Assembly (NCBI GenBank): GCA_030753675.1
Contig: JASMBU010000011.1
Span: 1-49,560 of the forward strand
DNA length: 49,560 nt
Source: Methylococcales bacterium
GTDB taxonomy: Bacteria; Pseudomonadota; Gammaproteobacteria; Methylococcales; Methylomonadaceae
Direction: 5' to 3'
Positions 4,246 to 15,483 of the stretch are shown here, piece after piece. A program made the translations under genes and the position numbers. Each line of letters starts with the position of its first letter. The stretch's first letter is position 1. Below the pieces are notes generated by a model. The model worked only from the letters and a program-made list of their open reading frames with translations, was not told where the DNA came from and searched no databases.

Positions 4246-6147
4246 ATGAGAAAAGTTCAGCTCTGGGGGCTGGTACTCACAGCTTGTGTGTTGAGTGGCC
4301 CGGTACAAGGTGATTCGGGCCGTTCTGAAGTACTGGCCCCGGGTTATCGGGCCTTACATTACCCAGCGCCGGCACCGGGGAGCTATCGTTTACCTGCTTT
4401 GGGGCGTGCTACTGACGGCTCCATCCTCAATAGCCAAGGGGATGCGTTGTCATTGTATCAACTCATGGGGGATAAAATTGTTTTACTGAGTTTTATTTAT
4501 TCGACTTGTGGCGATGTTAATGGTTGCCCATTAGCCACAGCTGTTTTTCATAAAATAAAACGCCAATTGGCAAAAGCGCCGGAAATTAGCCAACAGCTAC
4601 GGTTATTAACATTGAGTTTTAATCCGCAGTACGATACGCCGGAGAAAATGCAGCAGTATAGTCAGGGGTTTCAGGGGCAGGGGATTGATTGGCAGTTTTT
4701 AACGACAAGATCTGATGATCAGTTAGCCCCTATACTGGATGGCTATGGGCAGTCGGTTAAAAAAAATTATGATCAACAGGGGCTGTTCACGGGAACATTT
4801 TCTCATCAATTACGCGTTTTTTTAATTGACCGAACCAAACGGATCAGAAATATCTATAGTGTTGCCTTTTTACATCCAGAAACCGTCATCAATGATGTTA
4901 AAACGGTGCTTAGCGCCGTTGCGAATGGAAGCAAGCGTTTGGGTAGTCCTCTAAAGCGTGAGGCGTTATGGCGCCAGACAAGACTTCAGACATTTGCTGA
5001 CAATGAAAAAATACCTTTTCAACAAGAAGATGATGCTTTGATTGACGGTATGGGGCAACCGTTTGACTTACTCAGTACCGTCAAACAGCCACCGCTAGGG
5101 TTACCGGCTATTCCGGTACCCGCTAATAATCCGCTAACTAAAGACAAAGTACAGTTAGGACGGAAGTTGTTTTATGATCGACGTCTATCGTTAAATAATA
5201 CTTTTTCATGTGCCATGTGTCATATTCCTGAGCAGGGCTTCACTAATAATCAGCTAAAAACAGCAGTTGGTTTTGAAGGTCGTACTGTCAGGCGTAATGC
5301 ACCGAGTCTTTTTAATGTTGCCTTTAATGTCACGTTATTTCATGACGGGCGGGAAACCAGTTTGGAAAATCAGGTTTGGGGGCCGTTGTTAGCGGCTAAT
5401 GAAATGGCGAATCCTTCCATTGGTTATGTGGTTGAAAAAATAAAGGTAAGTGCTGATTATGCGGGTTTATTTCAACGCGCTTTTAAGCGCGGTGTCAGCA
5501 TGGAAACGGTCGCTATGGCGATTGCCAGTTATGAGCGTACCTTGAACGCGGCTGATTCTCGCTTTGATCGTTGGTTTTTTGACGACCAGAAGGATGCTTT
5601 AACCCCTTTAGCGCAACAAGGGTATCGATTGTTTGTAGGAAAGGCGCGCTGTGCAAATTGTCACCGGCTGACCGACCAAACGGCATTATTTACCGATGAG
5701 CAGTGGCATAATACCGGTTTGGGTTATCAAGAGGCTCATGAGCCTAAACCCAGTCAGCAACGGGTTCAGTTAGCGCCAGGACAGTTTGTCTCGGTAGACA
5801 GTACTTTGATTGAAGCGGTAAGCGGGCAAAAGGTAAGCGATTTAGGGCGTTATGAAGTCACCCAAAATCCGAAAGATAAATGGCGTTATCGAACACCGTC
5901 GTTAAGAAACATTTCGCTGACAGCCCCTTATATGCATAATGGTCAGTTTTCCACCTTGCAACAAGTGGTAAATTTTTATGATCAGGGAGGGGTTGAAAAC
6001 CCAGGTCTAGATCCGCTTATTGTGCCTTTGCATTTAACCAAACAGGAGAAGAAGGCGTTGGTACATTTTTTAGAAGTATTAACGGGTTCTACTGTCGCAT
6101 CGCTCGTTTTAGATGGTATTTCGGCACCGGTGGCAGATGCACAATAA
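4246..6147 (+). CDS. SCO1/SenC copper chaperone fused to a MauG/cytochrome c peroxidase
   Basis: A 633-residue exported two-domain protein. After an N-terminal signal peptide, residues about 30-225 form a SCO-type thioredoxin-fold domain. It has a cysteine pair C88 and C94 (CGDVNGCP, five residues apart rather than the usual three) and a histidine H187 before VFLID, the ligands expected to bind copper. Residues about 265-615 form a di-haem MauG/CCP domain with two CxxCH sites, C322-H326 and C469-H473. SCO and MauG genes are known partners of mtoX, probably for copper delivery and enzyme maturation; here they are one polypeptide. It starts 70 bases after mtoX, probably as one operon. Confidence 0.88.
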   Translation: MRKVQLWGLVLTACVLSGPVQGDSGRSEVLAPGYRALHYPAPAPGSYRLPALGRATDGSILNSQGDALSLYQLMGDKIVLLSFIYSTCGDVNGCPLATAVFHKIKRQLAKAPEISQQLRLLTLSFNPQYDTPEKMQQYSQGFQGQGIDWQFLTTRSDDQLAPILDGYGQSVKKNYDQQGLFTGTFSHQLRVFLIDRTKRIRNIYSVAFLHPETVINDVKTVLSAVANGSKRLGSPLKREALWRQTRLQTFADNEKIPFQQEDDALIDGMGQPFDLLSTVKQPPLGLPAIPVPANNPLTKDKVQLGRKLFYDRRLSLNNTFSCAMCHIPEQGFTNNQLKTAVGFEGRTVRRNAPSLFNVAFNVTLFHDGRETSLENQVWGPLLAANEMANPSIGYVVEKIKVSADYAGLFQRAFKRGVSMETVAMAIASYERTLNAADSRFDRWFFDDQKDALTPLAQQGYRLFVGKARCANCHRLTDQTALFTDEQWHNTGLGYQEAHEPKPSQQRVQLAPGQFVSVDSTLIEAVSGQKVSDLGRYEVTQNPKDKWRYRTPSLRNISLTAPYMHNGQFSTLQQVVNFYDQGGVENPGLDPLIVPLHLTKQEKKALVHFLEVLTGSTVASLVLDGISAPVADAQ

Positions 6148-10674: not shown

Positions 10675-12993
10675 GTGGGTAAGGGTATTTTGGGTGGTAT
10701 ATTTTTTATGGTAAAAATAGCGTTATCTTTTTTGGTTTTCATAATGGTGGCCGGTTTGCTGTTTGTATTGGCTATGATATTTGGGATCAAACCTGAGTCG
10801 GAGGTAGAATTAAGAGAAAGTGCTGATAAAGATTTTGAACGGATCACTTTGGCCATTCACCAGCATTTAGAGCATGCAATATCAACAGCCCAAGCACTTG
10901 CTAATTCAGCTAAATTAATGCCGGGTATGCCTGAACATTCTCAGCTTATTAAGCCGCTTTTTAAATCAATAATTGCAACGCCCGGATACGAATATTTAAT
11001 TGCCGGCGGTGGCATTTGGCCGGAGCCGTTCCAGTTTAATCCTGAAAAAGAACGGGATAGCTTTTTTTGGGGCCGAAATGAAGATAATCGACTGGTTTTT
11101 TATGATGACTATAATTTATTGGCAGGGCCAGGCTATCACCATCAAGAATGGTATGTGCCGGCACGTTTTTTAGCACCAGGGGAAGTTTATTGGTCTAAAT
11201 CTTACATAGACCCCTACTCGTTACAACCCATGGTTACAGTGACAATACCGATTATTAATCATGGGAACTTTCTTGGAGTTTCTACTGTTGATATCAAACT
11301 TGAAGGCTTGGGGGTATTATTACAATTAATCAAGGATCGCCACCATAAGAACGTGTTTTTAGTAGATAGGAATTTGCAACTCATTGCTAAGCCTCATGTT
11401 CAATCTTTGGAAAATGAAGTGTTAGAACAGGATGACTTCTTGAGTAACGCATCTGATTTCCAACAGGTTAAATCGGTGTTGAAACAGCGTCGTGAACAGC
11501 GGATTGTTCAAGCACAAAATAATTTACGTGTTACCCAATTGGCAAAAGAAATAAGTCCTGTTAATGGCGCGATCGATTTTGATGAGGGTCTGATAATTGC
11601 AAGTGGGTTCTACCGCCAAAAGGGTAAGGATTCATCTTTGCTTTCTAAAAATGCGGACATGATAGTTACAAATTTGTCCAAACAAAGAATCGCCTTTTCT
11701 CAATTAATTCCGTCTTTGCAATGGACAATTGTTATAGTTGAAGACCGTGTTGATGTTCCTATATCACAAATCATAGCTGATAATTTTAACCCATTTAAAT
11801 TTTCTTTTCTGATCATATGTTTGCTATTTATTTATTGGCAAATGCACCGTTATTTTATTAAGCCATTAAGTGTTATAGACCATCAACTTGCTGAATATGA
11901 GATATTTGATGATGAGTGGGTACAGCATGTAGAAAATAAAAATCTTGAAAATCAAGGCAAGAAAGAAAGAGCGAATAATGTGATTTCGCGCATATCGCAA
12001 GAGTTAGTTAAGCGAGATAAATATCTAAAACATGCAATGGAATTATTGCACGACGGACCCTTAGAAGAAATAAAAATAGAATATGAACCCAATGAGGCAG
12101 GTATAACTAGGGAAGAGCAAAGGGTATTACCCATAAGAGACCAAGGAGTGGCTCCTTTTGGGAGTGACAAGGATATCAATACGGTAAGCGGAAAACTCCG
12201 TGGTTGTAATTTATTACTGGTTGAGGATGATAAGGTTAGCCGTCAGTTATTGCATGCTTTTTGTCTGAGTCATAGATTATCACTAATGAGTGTGGAGACG
12301 GGTGAGGACATGTTGCCGGCATTACAAGGGAATCATTTTGATGCGGTTCTGTTAGATTTGAATCTACCGAAAATGAGTGGGGTAAGGGTAAAGCAACTTA
12401 TTAGAAACCAAAAAGAGTTTAAGCAATTACCAGTAATTATGCTCTCAGCAACTAAAATAAAAGCGCAAGAAGAATTCTTAGAAGGCGATGATTTTTGTGA
12501 CTTTTTTCATAAAACCCTACCTTTGGAACAGCTACTGTTTAAACTAGCGACATGGCTTCCTAACCAGTCAGAATCAACGGCAATTTATTATCCCGGTGAC
12601 ACTGAGTTATCAGAGTCTTCAATATTTGGGCTAACGGAACAGCAGGCGCTAAACGTTAAGGTGGGTTTGCATTACTGTGGTGAGGACATAGAGGCTTATA
12701 GATCGTTATTGAATTCATTTAGAGATCAATTTAAAGGCTTTGCTCTTTTGAGTAAGACTTATTGGGGTGAGGGTGATCAGAGTCAGTGGCAGAAACTTTT
12801 ACGAAGTATGCGAAAAAGTGCCGTTATTATCGGCGCTGAAAAGTTGACTGACCAAGTCGATGCTTTGGTTGTTATTTGTCGACAAGAACCGGTTAAAAAA
12901 GCCGAAATAGAATCGGGTATCAGCGCTGTAAAGAAAGAATTAGAGGGCGTGTTAATAGCCATCAATACGATGGTAACAACGGCCAGAAGATAG
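10675..12993 (+). CDS. membrane Cache-domain receptor with REC domain and degenerate HPt
   Basis: A 772-residue membrane signalling protein with no kinase domain. A TM helix at 13-38 is followed by a periplasmic dCache-like sensor (about 45-370, with GGIWPEP, FFWGRNEDN, HHQEWYVPAR and VYWSKSYIDPYS). TM2 is near 375-395. A cytoplasmic linker leads to a REC domain (about 513-630) with acid pair D518-D519, phospho-acceptor D561 and the lysine in HKTLPLE. The tail (about 660-765) resembles HPt around LRSMRKSAVIIGAEKL, but R710 stands where HPt proteins carry the phosphorylated His. The start is GTG; an ATG at 10708 is an alternative. The next gene encodes a hybrid kinase that probably phosphorylates it. 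The ligand is unknown. Confidence 0.85.
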   Translation: MGKGILGGIFFMVKIALSFLVFIMVAGLLFVLAMIFGIKPESEVELRESADKDFERITLAIHQHLEHAISTAQALANSAKLMPGMPEHSQLIKPLFKSIIATPGYEYLIAGGGIWPEPFQFNPEKERDSFFWGRNEDNRLVFYDDYNLLAGPGYHHQEWYVPARFLAPGEVYWSKSYIDPYSLQPMVTVTIPIINHGNFLGVSTVDIKLEGLGVLLQLIKDRHHKNVFLVDRNLQLIAKPHVQSLENEVLEQDDFLSNASDFQQVKSVLKQRREQRIVQAQNNLRVTQLAKEISPVNGAIDFDEGLIIASGFYRQKGKDSSLLSKNADMIVTNLSKQRIAFSQLIPSLQWTIVIVEDRVDVPISQIIADNFNPFKFSFLIICLLFIYWQMHRYFIKPLSVIDHQLAEYEIFDDEWVQHVENKNLENQGKKERANNVISRISQELVKRDKYLKHAMELLHDGPLEEIKIEYEPNEAGITREEQRVLPIRDQGVAPFGSDKDINTVSGKLRGCNLLLVEDDKVSRQLLHAFCLSHRLSLMSVETGEDMLPALQGNHFDAVLLDLNLPKMSGVRVKQLIRNQKEFKQLPVIMLSATKIKAQEEFLEGDDFCDFFHKTLPLEQLLFKLATWLPNQSESTAIYYPGDTELSESSIFGLTEQQALNVKVGLHYCGEDIEAYRSLLNSFRDQFKGFALLSKTYWGEGDQSQWQKLLRSMRKSAVIIGAEKLTDQVDALVVICRQEPVKKAEIESGISAVKKELEGVLIAINTMVTTARR

Positions 12994-13095
12994 TTTTTTT
13001 GTATGGTGTGTATTTAGGGTGAGCTAACAGTAGTAAAAAATTGCCAGCATGAGTGAGTTACTGGCGATGATACATTTTTAAGTAGCGGGTGAATT

Positions 13096-15483
13096 ATGCT
13101 AGCATTTTTCCAATCAATTTTAGACACTAAATATGTCATTCCACAGGGTATGAGTTTTCAATCGCAAAGTGATATTTCACCTATGCTCTTGATGACAGAT
13201 TTTGTGATCATTTTGGCTAAAATATCGATTTCAGCCTGGTTGCTAATGTTTTATAAAAGGTATAAAGAACAGCAACTTAGTGGCGTAATATTCTTATTGG
13301 GTGTTTTGATGAGTGTAGATGTTCTGGGGCAGTTGACTCATATGGTGAGGGCTGTGGGTGAGCATCAGGTTTCTATTTTATTTGTTATTGTTAAGGGTGT
13401 TATCTGTATTTTGGCCGTGATAATGGTTATTTATATTTGGTTAAATAGAATGGTGTTGAATAAGGATAAGGGGCATATTTGGGATTCTTATCAGGAGATG
13501 ATTGCTACGGCTAATGCACCTGTTTTTGGTGTTGATCTAGACGGTCGTGTAACGGAATGGAATGCGAGTGCAGAAAGGCTAACAGGCTATTTAAAGCAAG
13601 AAGTCTTAGGTAAAAAAATGGTTGAAAATTTTGTAGATGAAGATGATAAACCATTAGTCCAGTGTGTTCATGATAAAACATTAAAGGGTGATGAAACAAT
13701 TTTATATGAGTTGCCACTGATAACCCAGAAAGGTAATCGTGTCGAAGTGTTATTAAGTTCTTCTTCGCAGTGTAATAGACGAGGAGAAATTATAGGGTGT
13801 ATTGGTTTTGGTCAGAATATTACAGAACTGAAAAATAAGAGTAATGATCTGCTTAAAGTCAATGAACGCTTACAACAAGAGGTGCTTATTCATGAAGAAA
13901 CGAAAGAAAAATTGCTCGAATTGACGGCTAATTTAGATCAAGTAGTAGAACAAAGAACCAAAAAGTTAAAAAGGTCAGACCGAGTTAAAAGTGAGTTTAT
14001 TACGCATGTTAGCCATGAGCTTAGGACGCCTTTACATGGCTTGTTAGGGTTCTCACAACTCTTACAAGCTGACGAAGGGTTAACTGCTGAGCATCAAGAA
14101 AAATTAACGATTATTAATGAATGTGGGGAAACATTGTTATTGATGATTAATGATTTGTTGGAAGTGGGTATACATGATAGAGAGATTATTGATTCTGTTC
14201 TTGAATCATTTAATTTGTTTGAGTGGTTGAAGGGCATAAGGAAAATAGCAGAACAACAATGCGATGAAAAACAAATTGAATTCCAGTTTCAGATTGTCAA
14301 TGACAATTTACCCCAATATGTCATCGGTGACGCTAAGTTAATGAGGCAGTTGTTGCTCAATTTAATTACTAATGCGATTAAATATACCGAGAAAGGATCG
14401 GTTTGCTTACGAGTCTATTGTGAAGATAATAGATTTCATTTTCAAGTGGAAGATACTGGCCGTGGTATTTTGGACCATGAAATAGAAAATATTTTTGATC
14501 CTTATTATCGGTCATTGTCAGCGGAAACCACACAAGGAATGGGCTTAGGGCTGGCTATTTGTAAGAAAATAGCGGGGATACTAGGTTCAGATATTGTTGT
14601 TAATTCTGTTGTTAATGAAGGCAGTGTCTTTGAATTTACAGTTGAACTTGAGCTGGCTCCGATAACCCAATTAAGTCCTTTAGATTCGATGATCTCAATG
14701 AGGTATGAGGGGGTAGAAAAAATAATCATGGTGGTTGACGATAACGTAACGAATCGACTTTATATGGAAGAGCTTTTGTTGGGGAAAGGGTTTAATGTTT
14801 TTCTAGTAGAAAGTGGCGAAGAATGCTTGGAGTCAGTCAATAGTATTAAGCCGGATTTGATATTAATGGATTTAAAGATGCCGGGGTTGAGCGGTGTTGA
14901 GACCACAAAGCGATTAAGAAAGCAGAGCGTGAATTGGCCTGTTGTTGCCATGACGGCCAGTCCTTTAGAGCAAGATAAAGTGGATTTTTTTGCGGCAGGC
15001 GGGGTAGATTTTTTAGAGAAGCCATTGAACATGGAGGATTTCTACTATTGCCTGCAACAATGTTTGGGTGTTAATTTGCTTGATGGTAATGAGTATCAAT
15101 CAGAACCGAAAAGAAGCGCTAACAGCGCACATAGAATTCTGATTGTTGATGATGTGGTAGTAAATACGCAATGGTTGAGCGGTGTATTACAAAACAAGGG
15201 TTATTGTGTTGATGTTGTGGAGACCGGTTTGTTGGCAATCGAAAGATTAAACATAACAGAGTACGACTTTTTGTTAATAGATTTGGCAATCTATCAGAGC
15301 GATCAACAAGACCAACTTAAAGCAGTTTTAAATACTAAGAAGCTTAAGATGTTAGTCATTGCTTTAGAAAATGAGAGCCAGAAAGTACCGTCATCACAAC
15401 GGTTAAAATGGGGTGAGTTTAGCCATTGTTTAGATTTGCCGATAGAGTGGAAGAAACTTGATGGTATTATAGCGACGATTTAA
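13096..15483 (+). CDS. hybrid sensor histidine kinase (3 TM, PAS, HisKA, HATPase, REC, REC-like)
   Basis: A 795-residue inner-membrane protein. Three helices near 30-55, 60-83 and 92-118 leave little outside the membrane. A PAS domain (about 130-245) follows, then a coiled coil. HisKA carries H307 in FITHVSHELRTPLHGLLGFS. The HATPase domain shows the N box NLITNAIKYTEKG, DTGRGI, and MGLGLAICKKIAG. REC1 (about 540-660) has D592 in ILMDLKMPGLSG. A second receiver (about 675-793) keeps D729 but lacks the usual Thr/Ser and Lys positions, so it looks degenerate. It lies 102 bp after the Cache-REC gene and probably acts with it. No HPt is present. Confidence 0.9.
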   Translation: MLAFFQSILDTKYVIPQGMSFQSQSDISPMLLMTDFVIILAKISISAWLLMFYKRYKEQQLSGVIFLLGVLMSVDVLGQLTHMVRAVGEHQVSILFVIVKGVICILAVIMVIYIWLNRMVLNKDKGHIWDSYQEMIATANAPVFGVDLDGRVTEWNASAERLTGYLKQEVLGKKMVENFVDEDDKPLVQCVHDKTLKGDETILYELPLITQKGNRVEVLLSSSSQCNRRGEIIGCIGFGQNITELKNKSNDLLKVNERLQQEVLIHEETKEKLLELTANLDQVVEQRTKKLKRSDRVKSEFITHVSHELRTPLHGLLGFSQLLQADEGLTAEHQEKLTIINECGETLLLMINDLLEVGIHDREIIDSVLESFNLFEWLKGIRKIAEQQCDEKQIEFQFQIVNDNLPQYVIGDAKLMRQLLLNLITNAIKYTEKGSVCLRVYCEDNRFHFQVEDTGRGILDHEIENIFDPYYRSLSAETTQGMGLGLAICKKIAGILGSDIVVNSVVNEGSVFEFTVELELAPITQLSPLDSMISMRYEGVEKIIMVVDDNVTNRLYMEELLLGKGFNVFLVESGEECLESVNSIKPDLILMDLKMPGLSGVETTKRLRKQSVNWPVVAMTASPLEQDKVDFFAAGGVDFLEKPLNMEDFYYCLQQCLGVNLLDGNEYQSEPKRSANSAHRILIVDDVVVNTQWLSGVLQNKGYCVDVVETGLLAIERLNITEYDFLLIDLAIYQSDQQDQLKAVLNTKKLKMLVIALENESQKVPSSQRLKWGEFSHCLDLPIEWKKLDGIIATI

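Follow-up and report, generated by a model that had tools for sequence, protein, structure and literature searches.

An ethylene-receptor-type hybrid kinase and a kinase-less Cache receptor with an HPt-derived tail encoded side by side in a genus of marine methanotrophs

Two neighbouring genes of a marine methane-eating bacterium, a member of an OPU3-type genus of Methylococcales, appear, by the relationships of their domains, to encode proteins from separate sources that have come to lie next to each other: P1, a membrane receptor that joins a Cache sensor to a receiver (REC) and an HPt-derived tail and has no kinase, and P2, a hybrid histidine kinase with a degenerate sensor domain of the ethylene-receptor type. 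The pair lies in the window, by which we mean the whole analysed stretch of 49,560 nucleotides (contig JASMBU010000011.1 of assembly GCA_030753675.1; the genome, 1.72 Mb and 99.5% complete, is referred to as G000), with both genes on the + strand and 102 bases apart (Table 1), and it arranges the parts of a hybrid phosphorelay in a variant form that has so far been found only in this genus. So what could the two proteins do together? We tentatively favor, at somewhat less than an even chance, the reading that they form one signalling unit of mixed origin in which P1 would be a ligand-responsive acceptor or brake for P2.

Table 1. Features of the P1-P2 gene pair (positions are those of the window)
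Feature	Positions	Strand	Evidence
P1: kinase-less receptor, TM-dCache-TM-linker-REC-HPt-like tail	10675..12993	+	intact ORF, Pfam, alignment
P1 membrane-distal dCache module with CqsR-type (predicted amino-alcohol) pocket	10999..11310	+	Pfam, phmmer, residue mapping
P1 receiver (REC), complete acidic site D518, D519, D561, K613	12208..12552	+	
P1 HPt-derived tail, Arg710 (codon 12802-12804) replacing phospho-His	12637..12969	+	HMM, orthologue alignment
P2: hybrid histidine kinase, degenerate ETR1-type 3TM-PAS-HisKA-HATPase-REC1-REC2 (795 aa)	13096..15483	+	intact ORF, Pfam
P2 degenerate ethylene-binding-type TM domain; D35 and K100 kept, Tyr replaced by K42, copper Cys lost	13096..13461	+	
P2 PAS domain	13489..13821	+	Pfam
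P2 HisKA, phospho-acceptor H307	13987..14166	+	Pfam
P2 HATPase_c catalytic domain	14326..14652	+	Pfam
P2 REC1, complete: D548, D549, D592, T620, K642	14725..15042	+	
P2 REC2, degenerate; D685, D686, D729 kept, switch Thr and Lys lost	15121..15474	+	

Counted from the GTG at position 10675, P1 has 772 residues; the ATG at 10708 (M12) is the likelier start, given that homology with the orthologues begins there. An earlier note on this DNA had described the protein as an external sensor with a complete receiver and no kinase, and this description holds: Pfam detects MCP-like_PDC_1 and dCache_1 (the latter with a score under its cut-off) and Response_reg at 2.9e-16, with no match to HisKA or HATPase, and in the alignment of orthologues E517, D518, D519, D561, S591, K613 and R710 all stand at these numbered positions, S591 and K613 completing the receiver site. 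The first TM segment was flagged by a hydropathy scan with a strict cut and the second was read by eye. No DNA-binding domain is shown by Pfam in P1 or P2, as the note had also stated. From the receiver into the HPt end, P1 aligns with the NCBIfam family BarA at 42.7 bits, the cut-off of that family being 890, and its relatives among named records are three Methylococcales MAGs, including OPU3_GD_OMZ. The AlphaFold model of P1, made from a four-sequence alignment, has a mean pLDDT of 43, only the receiver coming near 80 and the tail helices being of low to medium confidence; of 50 listed Foldseek matches to P1, those that superpose well are to single receivers, and the long alignments deviate with an rmsd of 11-13 A. 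The N-terminus of P2, likewise modelled from four sequences, has a pLDDT of 48. Models this poor support no claim about a dimer interface, the TM2 register or a contact between Lys42 and Asp75.

P2 combines a HisKA His, an ATP-binding domain (HATPase_c at 9.6e-24 in Pfam) and an intact receiver, as befits a hybrid histidine kinase, and, going by where the receiver and HATPase matches lie and in which frames, it is the sole kinase in G000 that also bears receivers. It supplies the kinase (HisKA with H307, HATPase_c) and the two RECs that the earlier note had assigned to it and has no Hpt match, again as described there. Its sensor was underrated in being called minimal: the ETR1_N match and profile comparison reveal a three-helix, degenerate ethylene-receptor domain followed by a PAS domain, which disposes of the idea that P2 has no real sensor. 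Orthologues are available from five genomes of the genus, namely G000 with the window, G087 (locus L005), G047, G021 (L006) and G069 (L007). The window domain scores 20.6 bits against ETR1_N, and those of the window, L005, G047 and L006 together 20-25 bits, all under the cut-off of 27, whereas L007 reaches 106.6 bits and carries ACGATH; the L007 protein lacks the PAS domain and has Asn at the phospho-Asp position of REC2. A single hhalign comparison of the four degenerate domains with 31 canonical ones, some of them near-identical, gave probabilities of 98.7-98.9 and E-values of about 2-3e-16, and the degenerate domains match a purpose-built ethylene-domain HMM with 23.6-44 bits, so that we regard them as homologous 3-TM domains. 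A search for a solved structure with the L007 domain gave no match at E<=1.

The copper-site Cys and His are kept in one P2 orthologue, L007, and the Cys is absent from the window and the three others. All four degenerate domains retain the positions of D25, I35 and K91 of ETR1 and have Lys at that of Y32; at the Cys position they have Gly or Leu when a gap is placed in TM2 and Asp or Glu in the ungapped register (G78 or D75 in the window, depending on the register), and the His is kept in two of the four with the gap and is Gln in all four without it. With regard to the seven ethylene-binding residues (D25, Y32, I35, P36, I62, C65 and H69, a list to which Y32 presumably belongs), the window has two or three, depending on the TM2 register, and L007 has six. 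Across the best-scoring 30 loci of other genera, taken from a longer list by HMM without a sequence pattern and including L083, D25, Y32, I35, C65, H69 and K91 are invariant, that is, the copper Cys and His are kept in all 30, and P36 and I62 are each found in 29; in an earlier domain set, chosen by the CGxTH pattern and without L083, the presence of Cys and His in 29 of 29 is true by construction. C65 of ETR1 coordinates copper, and its mutation, like that of the matching Cys of SynEtr1, eliminates ethylene binding (PMC11819568, PMC6586836). Having lost this Cys, the P2 protein of the window is not to be filed as an ethylene receptor.

The loss of the copper site need not have occurred in the ancestor of the whole genus, given that P2 of L006 seems to be a mosaic. 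Compared with the window, its N-terminal third differs at 52 of 243 third codon positions and its core at 204 of 442 (p=8.6e-11), and the core is nearer to that of L007 (94 differences at 441 third positions). With the N-terminus close to the window and the core close to L007, the segment comprising the ethylene-binding-type domain and PAS was probably moved between the clades by recombination, in either direction.

Beyond the genus, 88 of the 151 sampled genomes of the family encode ETR1_N domains scoring above the Pfam cut-off, with up to six matches per genome, and these many ethylene-receptor-type domains of a methanotroph family merit attention. Ethylene-binding-type domains of proteobacteria are already in print (PMC7700396). 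By titles and abstract starts, we found no paper on ethylene receptors in methanotrophs in the open-licence literature; PMC10452086, which contains both ethylene and methanotroph words, names only Methylobacterium, in a reference, and the word 'receptor' does not occur in PMC11507031, a paper on ethylene in methanotrophs. Since methane monooxygenase co-oxidises ethylene to the toxic epoxyethane (PMC11507031), the ethylene-type domains of the family deserve testing as ethylene sensors.

The sensor of P1 has a different affinity. In a phmmer search of the PDB, its Cache domain matches the periplasmic domain of CqsR (9NIA and related entries) at E=6.5e-22, the other Cache chains scoring 0.01 or worse. 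The ethanolamine contacts of CqsR, W105, F123, W138, W151, Y169, D171, T196 and D198 (PMC12410723), map to W115, F131, Y146, W159, Y177, D179, T204 and D206 in the window, seven of the eight being identical and the remaining one, W138, being replaced by Tyr. This set is kept in all four whole-region Cache homologues of other genera (a fifth, partial one agrees where it can be compared); within the genus, the window, L005 and L007 retain the pocket, and in L006 the platform residue is changed from Asp to Asn, the change that abolishes ethanolamine binding in CqsR (PMC12410723). From the match to CqsR and the retained contacts, the predicted ligand of P1 is a 2-amino alcohol or a small amine. 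The Arg with which the amino-acid motif of dCache domains binds the carboxylate is missing, which makes a ligand of the amino-acid type unlikely: the position that we take to be that of this Arg in the Cache alignment holds Gln in the genus and Glu in CqsR and the other genera. The amine motif is the subject of PMC10104139.

Could the pair then be a sensor kinase split in two, as the earlier note proposed? The Cache domain of P1 is related to those of Cache-kinases from other genera of the family and the N-terminus of P2 to those of ethylene-receptor kinases, and two N-terminal sensors with different relatives point to two proteins of different origin turned neighbours, so that the split appears unlikely. 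The proteins that bear the homologous Cache in G104, G086 and G035 also contain HisKA and HATPase; in G008 it belongs to a HisKA gene that an IS66-type insertion has disrupted, and the G045 copy is cut by the contig end. At the G008 locus (L064:7522-10920), the interrupting element is an opposite-strand ORF of 571 aa with a Pfam match to IS66 transposase. G035, G008 and the window all have an NhaD-type gene in the vicinity of the Cache gene. A further ORF of the window (4246-6147) unites two domains, SCO1/SenC and a di-haem peroxidase of the MauG type.

The co-occurrence of the two genes, on which the earlier note had made its proposal depend, is complete: P1 and P2 are neighbours in all five genomes of the genus (P1 of G047, cut by a contig end, aligns over its remaining 155 residues), and in the window, L005, L006 and L007 a gene of the DUF218 type lies upstream of P1. 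Among the matches listed for 201 sampled genomes of the family, full-length P1 alignments were confined to three genus relatives besides G000. When residues 301-772 of P1 were used as the query against 151 genomes of the order, four genomes outside the genus matched at E<=1e-20, each with REC-HPt in a frame of at least 1020 aa and none reaching the Cache domain. Thus, neither the family sample (among the matches listed) nor the order sample, searched at a cut that would miss more divergent kinase-less proteins, yielded a kinase-less P1-type protein outside the genus, and a search of the open-licence literature listed no paper with kinase-less Cache-REC-HPt receptors in its title.

The HPt-like tail of P1 has no match to Pfam Hpt at E<=1 in the window; among the orthologues, hmmscan reports one only in L007 (14.4 bits), and the genome search gave 19.9 bits in G069 and 15.4 bits in G021, the cut-off being 24.6. 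An HMM of 16 HPt tails, drawn from kinases and HPt proteins and selected for the HxL[KNR]G motif (23 loci were tried and the seven without it left out), recognises the tail of every one of the five orthologues, with 43-54 bits (50.6 in the window), and puts R710 on the phospho-His column with no gap; comparison of the tail with the HPt profile gives an hhalign value of 98.7, as expected of a homologous, helical HPt domain. Position 710 is Arg in the window, L005 and G047 and His in L006 and L007. Accordingly, the earlier note's pseudo-HPt stands for the first three proteins and fails for the other two, and Arg-for-His as a steady trait of homologues, for which retention of His had been named beforehand as the refuting observation, has to be given up: the pseudo-HPt is the state of one sublineage and not a fixed feature of the architecture. 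The textbook HPt motif is HxLKG. In the window its phospho-accepting His is replaced by R710, and even the His-bearing tails are atypical, reading HNLE[IT]SA, which suggests that the relay may already have worked poorly when the His disappeared and that the L006 and L007 tails may be weak phosphotransferases. After the loss of the His, the tail continued to be constrained, with dN/dS of 0.37 for the window against L005 (p 0.003) and 0.37 against G047 (p 0.005), and the values for the three pairs of the Arg clade (0.37, 0.37 and 0.53) are similar to that of the His pair (0.43).

Under the hypothesis of a single unit, an ethylene-receptor-type hybrid kinase would be partnered by a Cache receptor whose REC-HPt takes the place of the kinase of related Cache proteins; in the lineage of the window, the copper Cys is gone, a PAS domain stands between the ethylene domain and the kinase, and the HPt of P1 is without its phospho-His. 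P2 would autophosphorylate at H307 and pass the phosphate to REC1. P1 would be gated by its ligand, a small amine or 2-amino alcohol bound in the Cache pocket, would receive phosphate on D561 and/or bind a receiver through its pseudo-HPt, and would thereby serve as an acceptor or a brake and not as a relay. Constant adjacency, the seven shared CqsR contacts, the position of P2 as the only receiver-bearing kinase, the failure of the REC-HPt matches outside the genus (four of 151 genomes) to reach the Cache domain, and the constraint on the HPt tail are all in favor of this hypothesis, and so is the constraint on the parts that would exchange phosphate. Between the window and L005, dN/dS in P1 is 0.35 for Cache, 0.61 for the linker, 0.15 for REC and 0.37 for the tail, and in P2 it is 0.58 for the ethylene-like domain, 0.57 for PAS, 0.19 for the coil with HisKA, 0.24 for HATPase, 0.41 for REC1 and 0.24 for REC2; purifying selection is significant for the P1 receiver (p 1.1e-10) and the P2 coil with HisKA (p 3.0e-5) in Fisher tests that use approximate site counts (25% synonymous).

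The atypical His-bearing HPts speak against a working unit, and several further observations do so as well while supporting a competing account, which we regard as unlikely although deserving serious consideration: that small genomes are losing the relay piecemeal, first the copper site, the HPt His and REC2 and then the kinase, the window representing a late and possibly silent stage. The genomes of the genus are of 1.0-2.3 Mb (the smallest is only 65% complete). Protein change is faster in the pair than around it, dN between the window and L005 being 0.13 for P1 and 0.10 for P2 against 0.017-0.075 for six neighbours, with whole-protein dN/dS of 0.37 and 0.41 against 0.08-0.29 (NhaD over 69 codons only), and the window is 48% identical to L006 and L007 in P1 and 57-64% in P2, compared with 74-95% in eight flanking genes. 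The ethylene-like domain is weakly constrained in the window clade (dN/dS 0.58-0.66; p=0.037 for the window against L005 and 0.33 for L005 against G047). P2 is damaged in two of the five assemblies: in G047 (L039, contig C69), an in-frame deletion of 21 bases removes seven residues including the phospho-His, and in G021 (L006:9130-11507), where P1 is intact, there is an in-frame TAA in PAS and a frameshift within REC2. The pocket change of L006, the Asp-to-Asn change in REC2 of L007 and, in G000, an isolated HPt left over from a different hybrid kinase fit piecemeal loss, too. On the other side, both ORFs of the window are intact, the P1 receiver and the P2 HisKA are strongly constrained, the Cache pocket is conserved in three genomes, and the lesions in G047 and G021, which are metagenome-assembled genomes, may be assembly errors. 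Be that as it may, with the phospho-His of the sensor gone beside a kinase that has lost its copper Cys, the old relay appears to be mid-way through rewiring or loss.

Two other arrangements have to be weighed against the one-unit hypothesis. In the first, which we consider improbable, ligand-sensing P1 would switch the P2 kinase by contact, through the linker, the REC or the pseudo-HPt, with no need of its own phosphorylation; the only periplasmic sensor of the pair is that of P1 and the pseudo-HPt is still constrained without its His, but the receiver site of P1 is complete and strongly constrained, which pure gating would not require. In the second, the two proteins would not be partners at all, and the P1 REC and P2 REC1 would each reach an orphan GacA-like regulator via free HPt proteins. 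G000 does have the parts. Its nine receiver matches include three within the pair, and it encodes two further HPt proteins, L097 and L101, as well as an intact response regulator with a receiver and a LuxR-type DNA-binding domain (L110:983-1633, - strand, contig C32; best NCBIfam match UvrY/SirA/GacA at 197.5 bits, family cut-off 280), with no kinase gene seen on its 3.6 kb contig, so that a route from P2 through an HPt protein to L110 is possible by elimination. Such elimination is weak evidence for a pairing, however, and the L110 contig is short; moreover, constant adjacency and the joint acceleration of the two genes argue against independence, and L101 has no match in G047, all of which makes this arrangement quite doubtful. 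L101 itself (1414-1839, - strand, contig C20) is a stand-alone protein of 142 aa with HAHTLKG that shares 76% identity with the HPt end of a frame for a hybrid kinase in G021 and is probably a remnant of a lost hybrid kinase. Elsewhere in G000 (C22:160940-161074), a receiver fragment with an internal TAG lies beside an ORF that looks HD-GYP-like by eye, apparently a broken gene.

Taking the one-unit hypothesis a step further, one may picture a gas-sensing relay turned into a ligand-gated brake, with the Arg-HPt as a tethered decoy in the receiver of the kinase, a 2-amino-alcohol sensor, and the copper site converted to a buried Lys42-Asp75 charge pair; the Asp75 position is acidic in all four degenerate domains in the ungapped register, and we hold this elaboration to be a long shot. 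More generally, the interest of the system lies in the stepwise differences in sensor and relay chemistry between close relatives, together with the CqsR-like pocket. The five genomes display several states of one phosphorelay, a canonical ethylene-type sensor with a His-HPt in L007, a degenerate sensor with a His-HPt in L006, and a degenerate sensor with an Arg-HPt in the window, L005 and G047, so that loss or rewiring can be tested step by step.

How does the pair compare with known systems? The 3-TM domains of AzoEtr1 (Azospirillum), SynEtr1 and plant ETR1 are homologous to the N-terminus of P2, in which D35 and K100 correspond to the retained D25 and K91, and the TM-PAS-kinase order of AzoEtr1 is that of P2 (PMC11819568); unlike the ethylene receptors, P2 of the window has lost the copper Cys, has Lys in place of Tyr and carries two RECs. 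CqsR, the ethanolamine receptor kinase of V. cholerae, is the nearest solved relative of the P1 Cache by sequence but is itself a kinase, whereas P1 has REC-HPt instead; likewise, the Cache-histidine kinases of G035, G104 and G086, which share the P1 pocket residues, contain HisKA and HATPase domains but match neither receiver nor Hpt. AHP6-type plant pseudo-HPts are HPt homologues without the phospho-His (His to Asn) and are proposed relay inhibitors; AHP6 is free-standing and eukaryotic, whereas the P1 tail is part of a membrane-tethered bacterial REC-HPt and has Arg. Finally, RcsD is a membrane protein with a periplasmic sensor that works with the hybrid kinase RcsC; it keeps a kinase-like remnant, and its HPt is functional. 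P1 shows neither a HATPase or HisKA match nor the HPt His and, unlike RcsD, carries a REC, but both RcsD/RcsC and P1/P2 pair a second membrane protein bearing a periplasmic sensor with a hybrid kinase.
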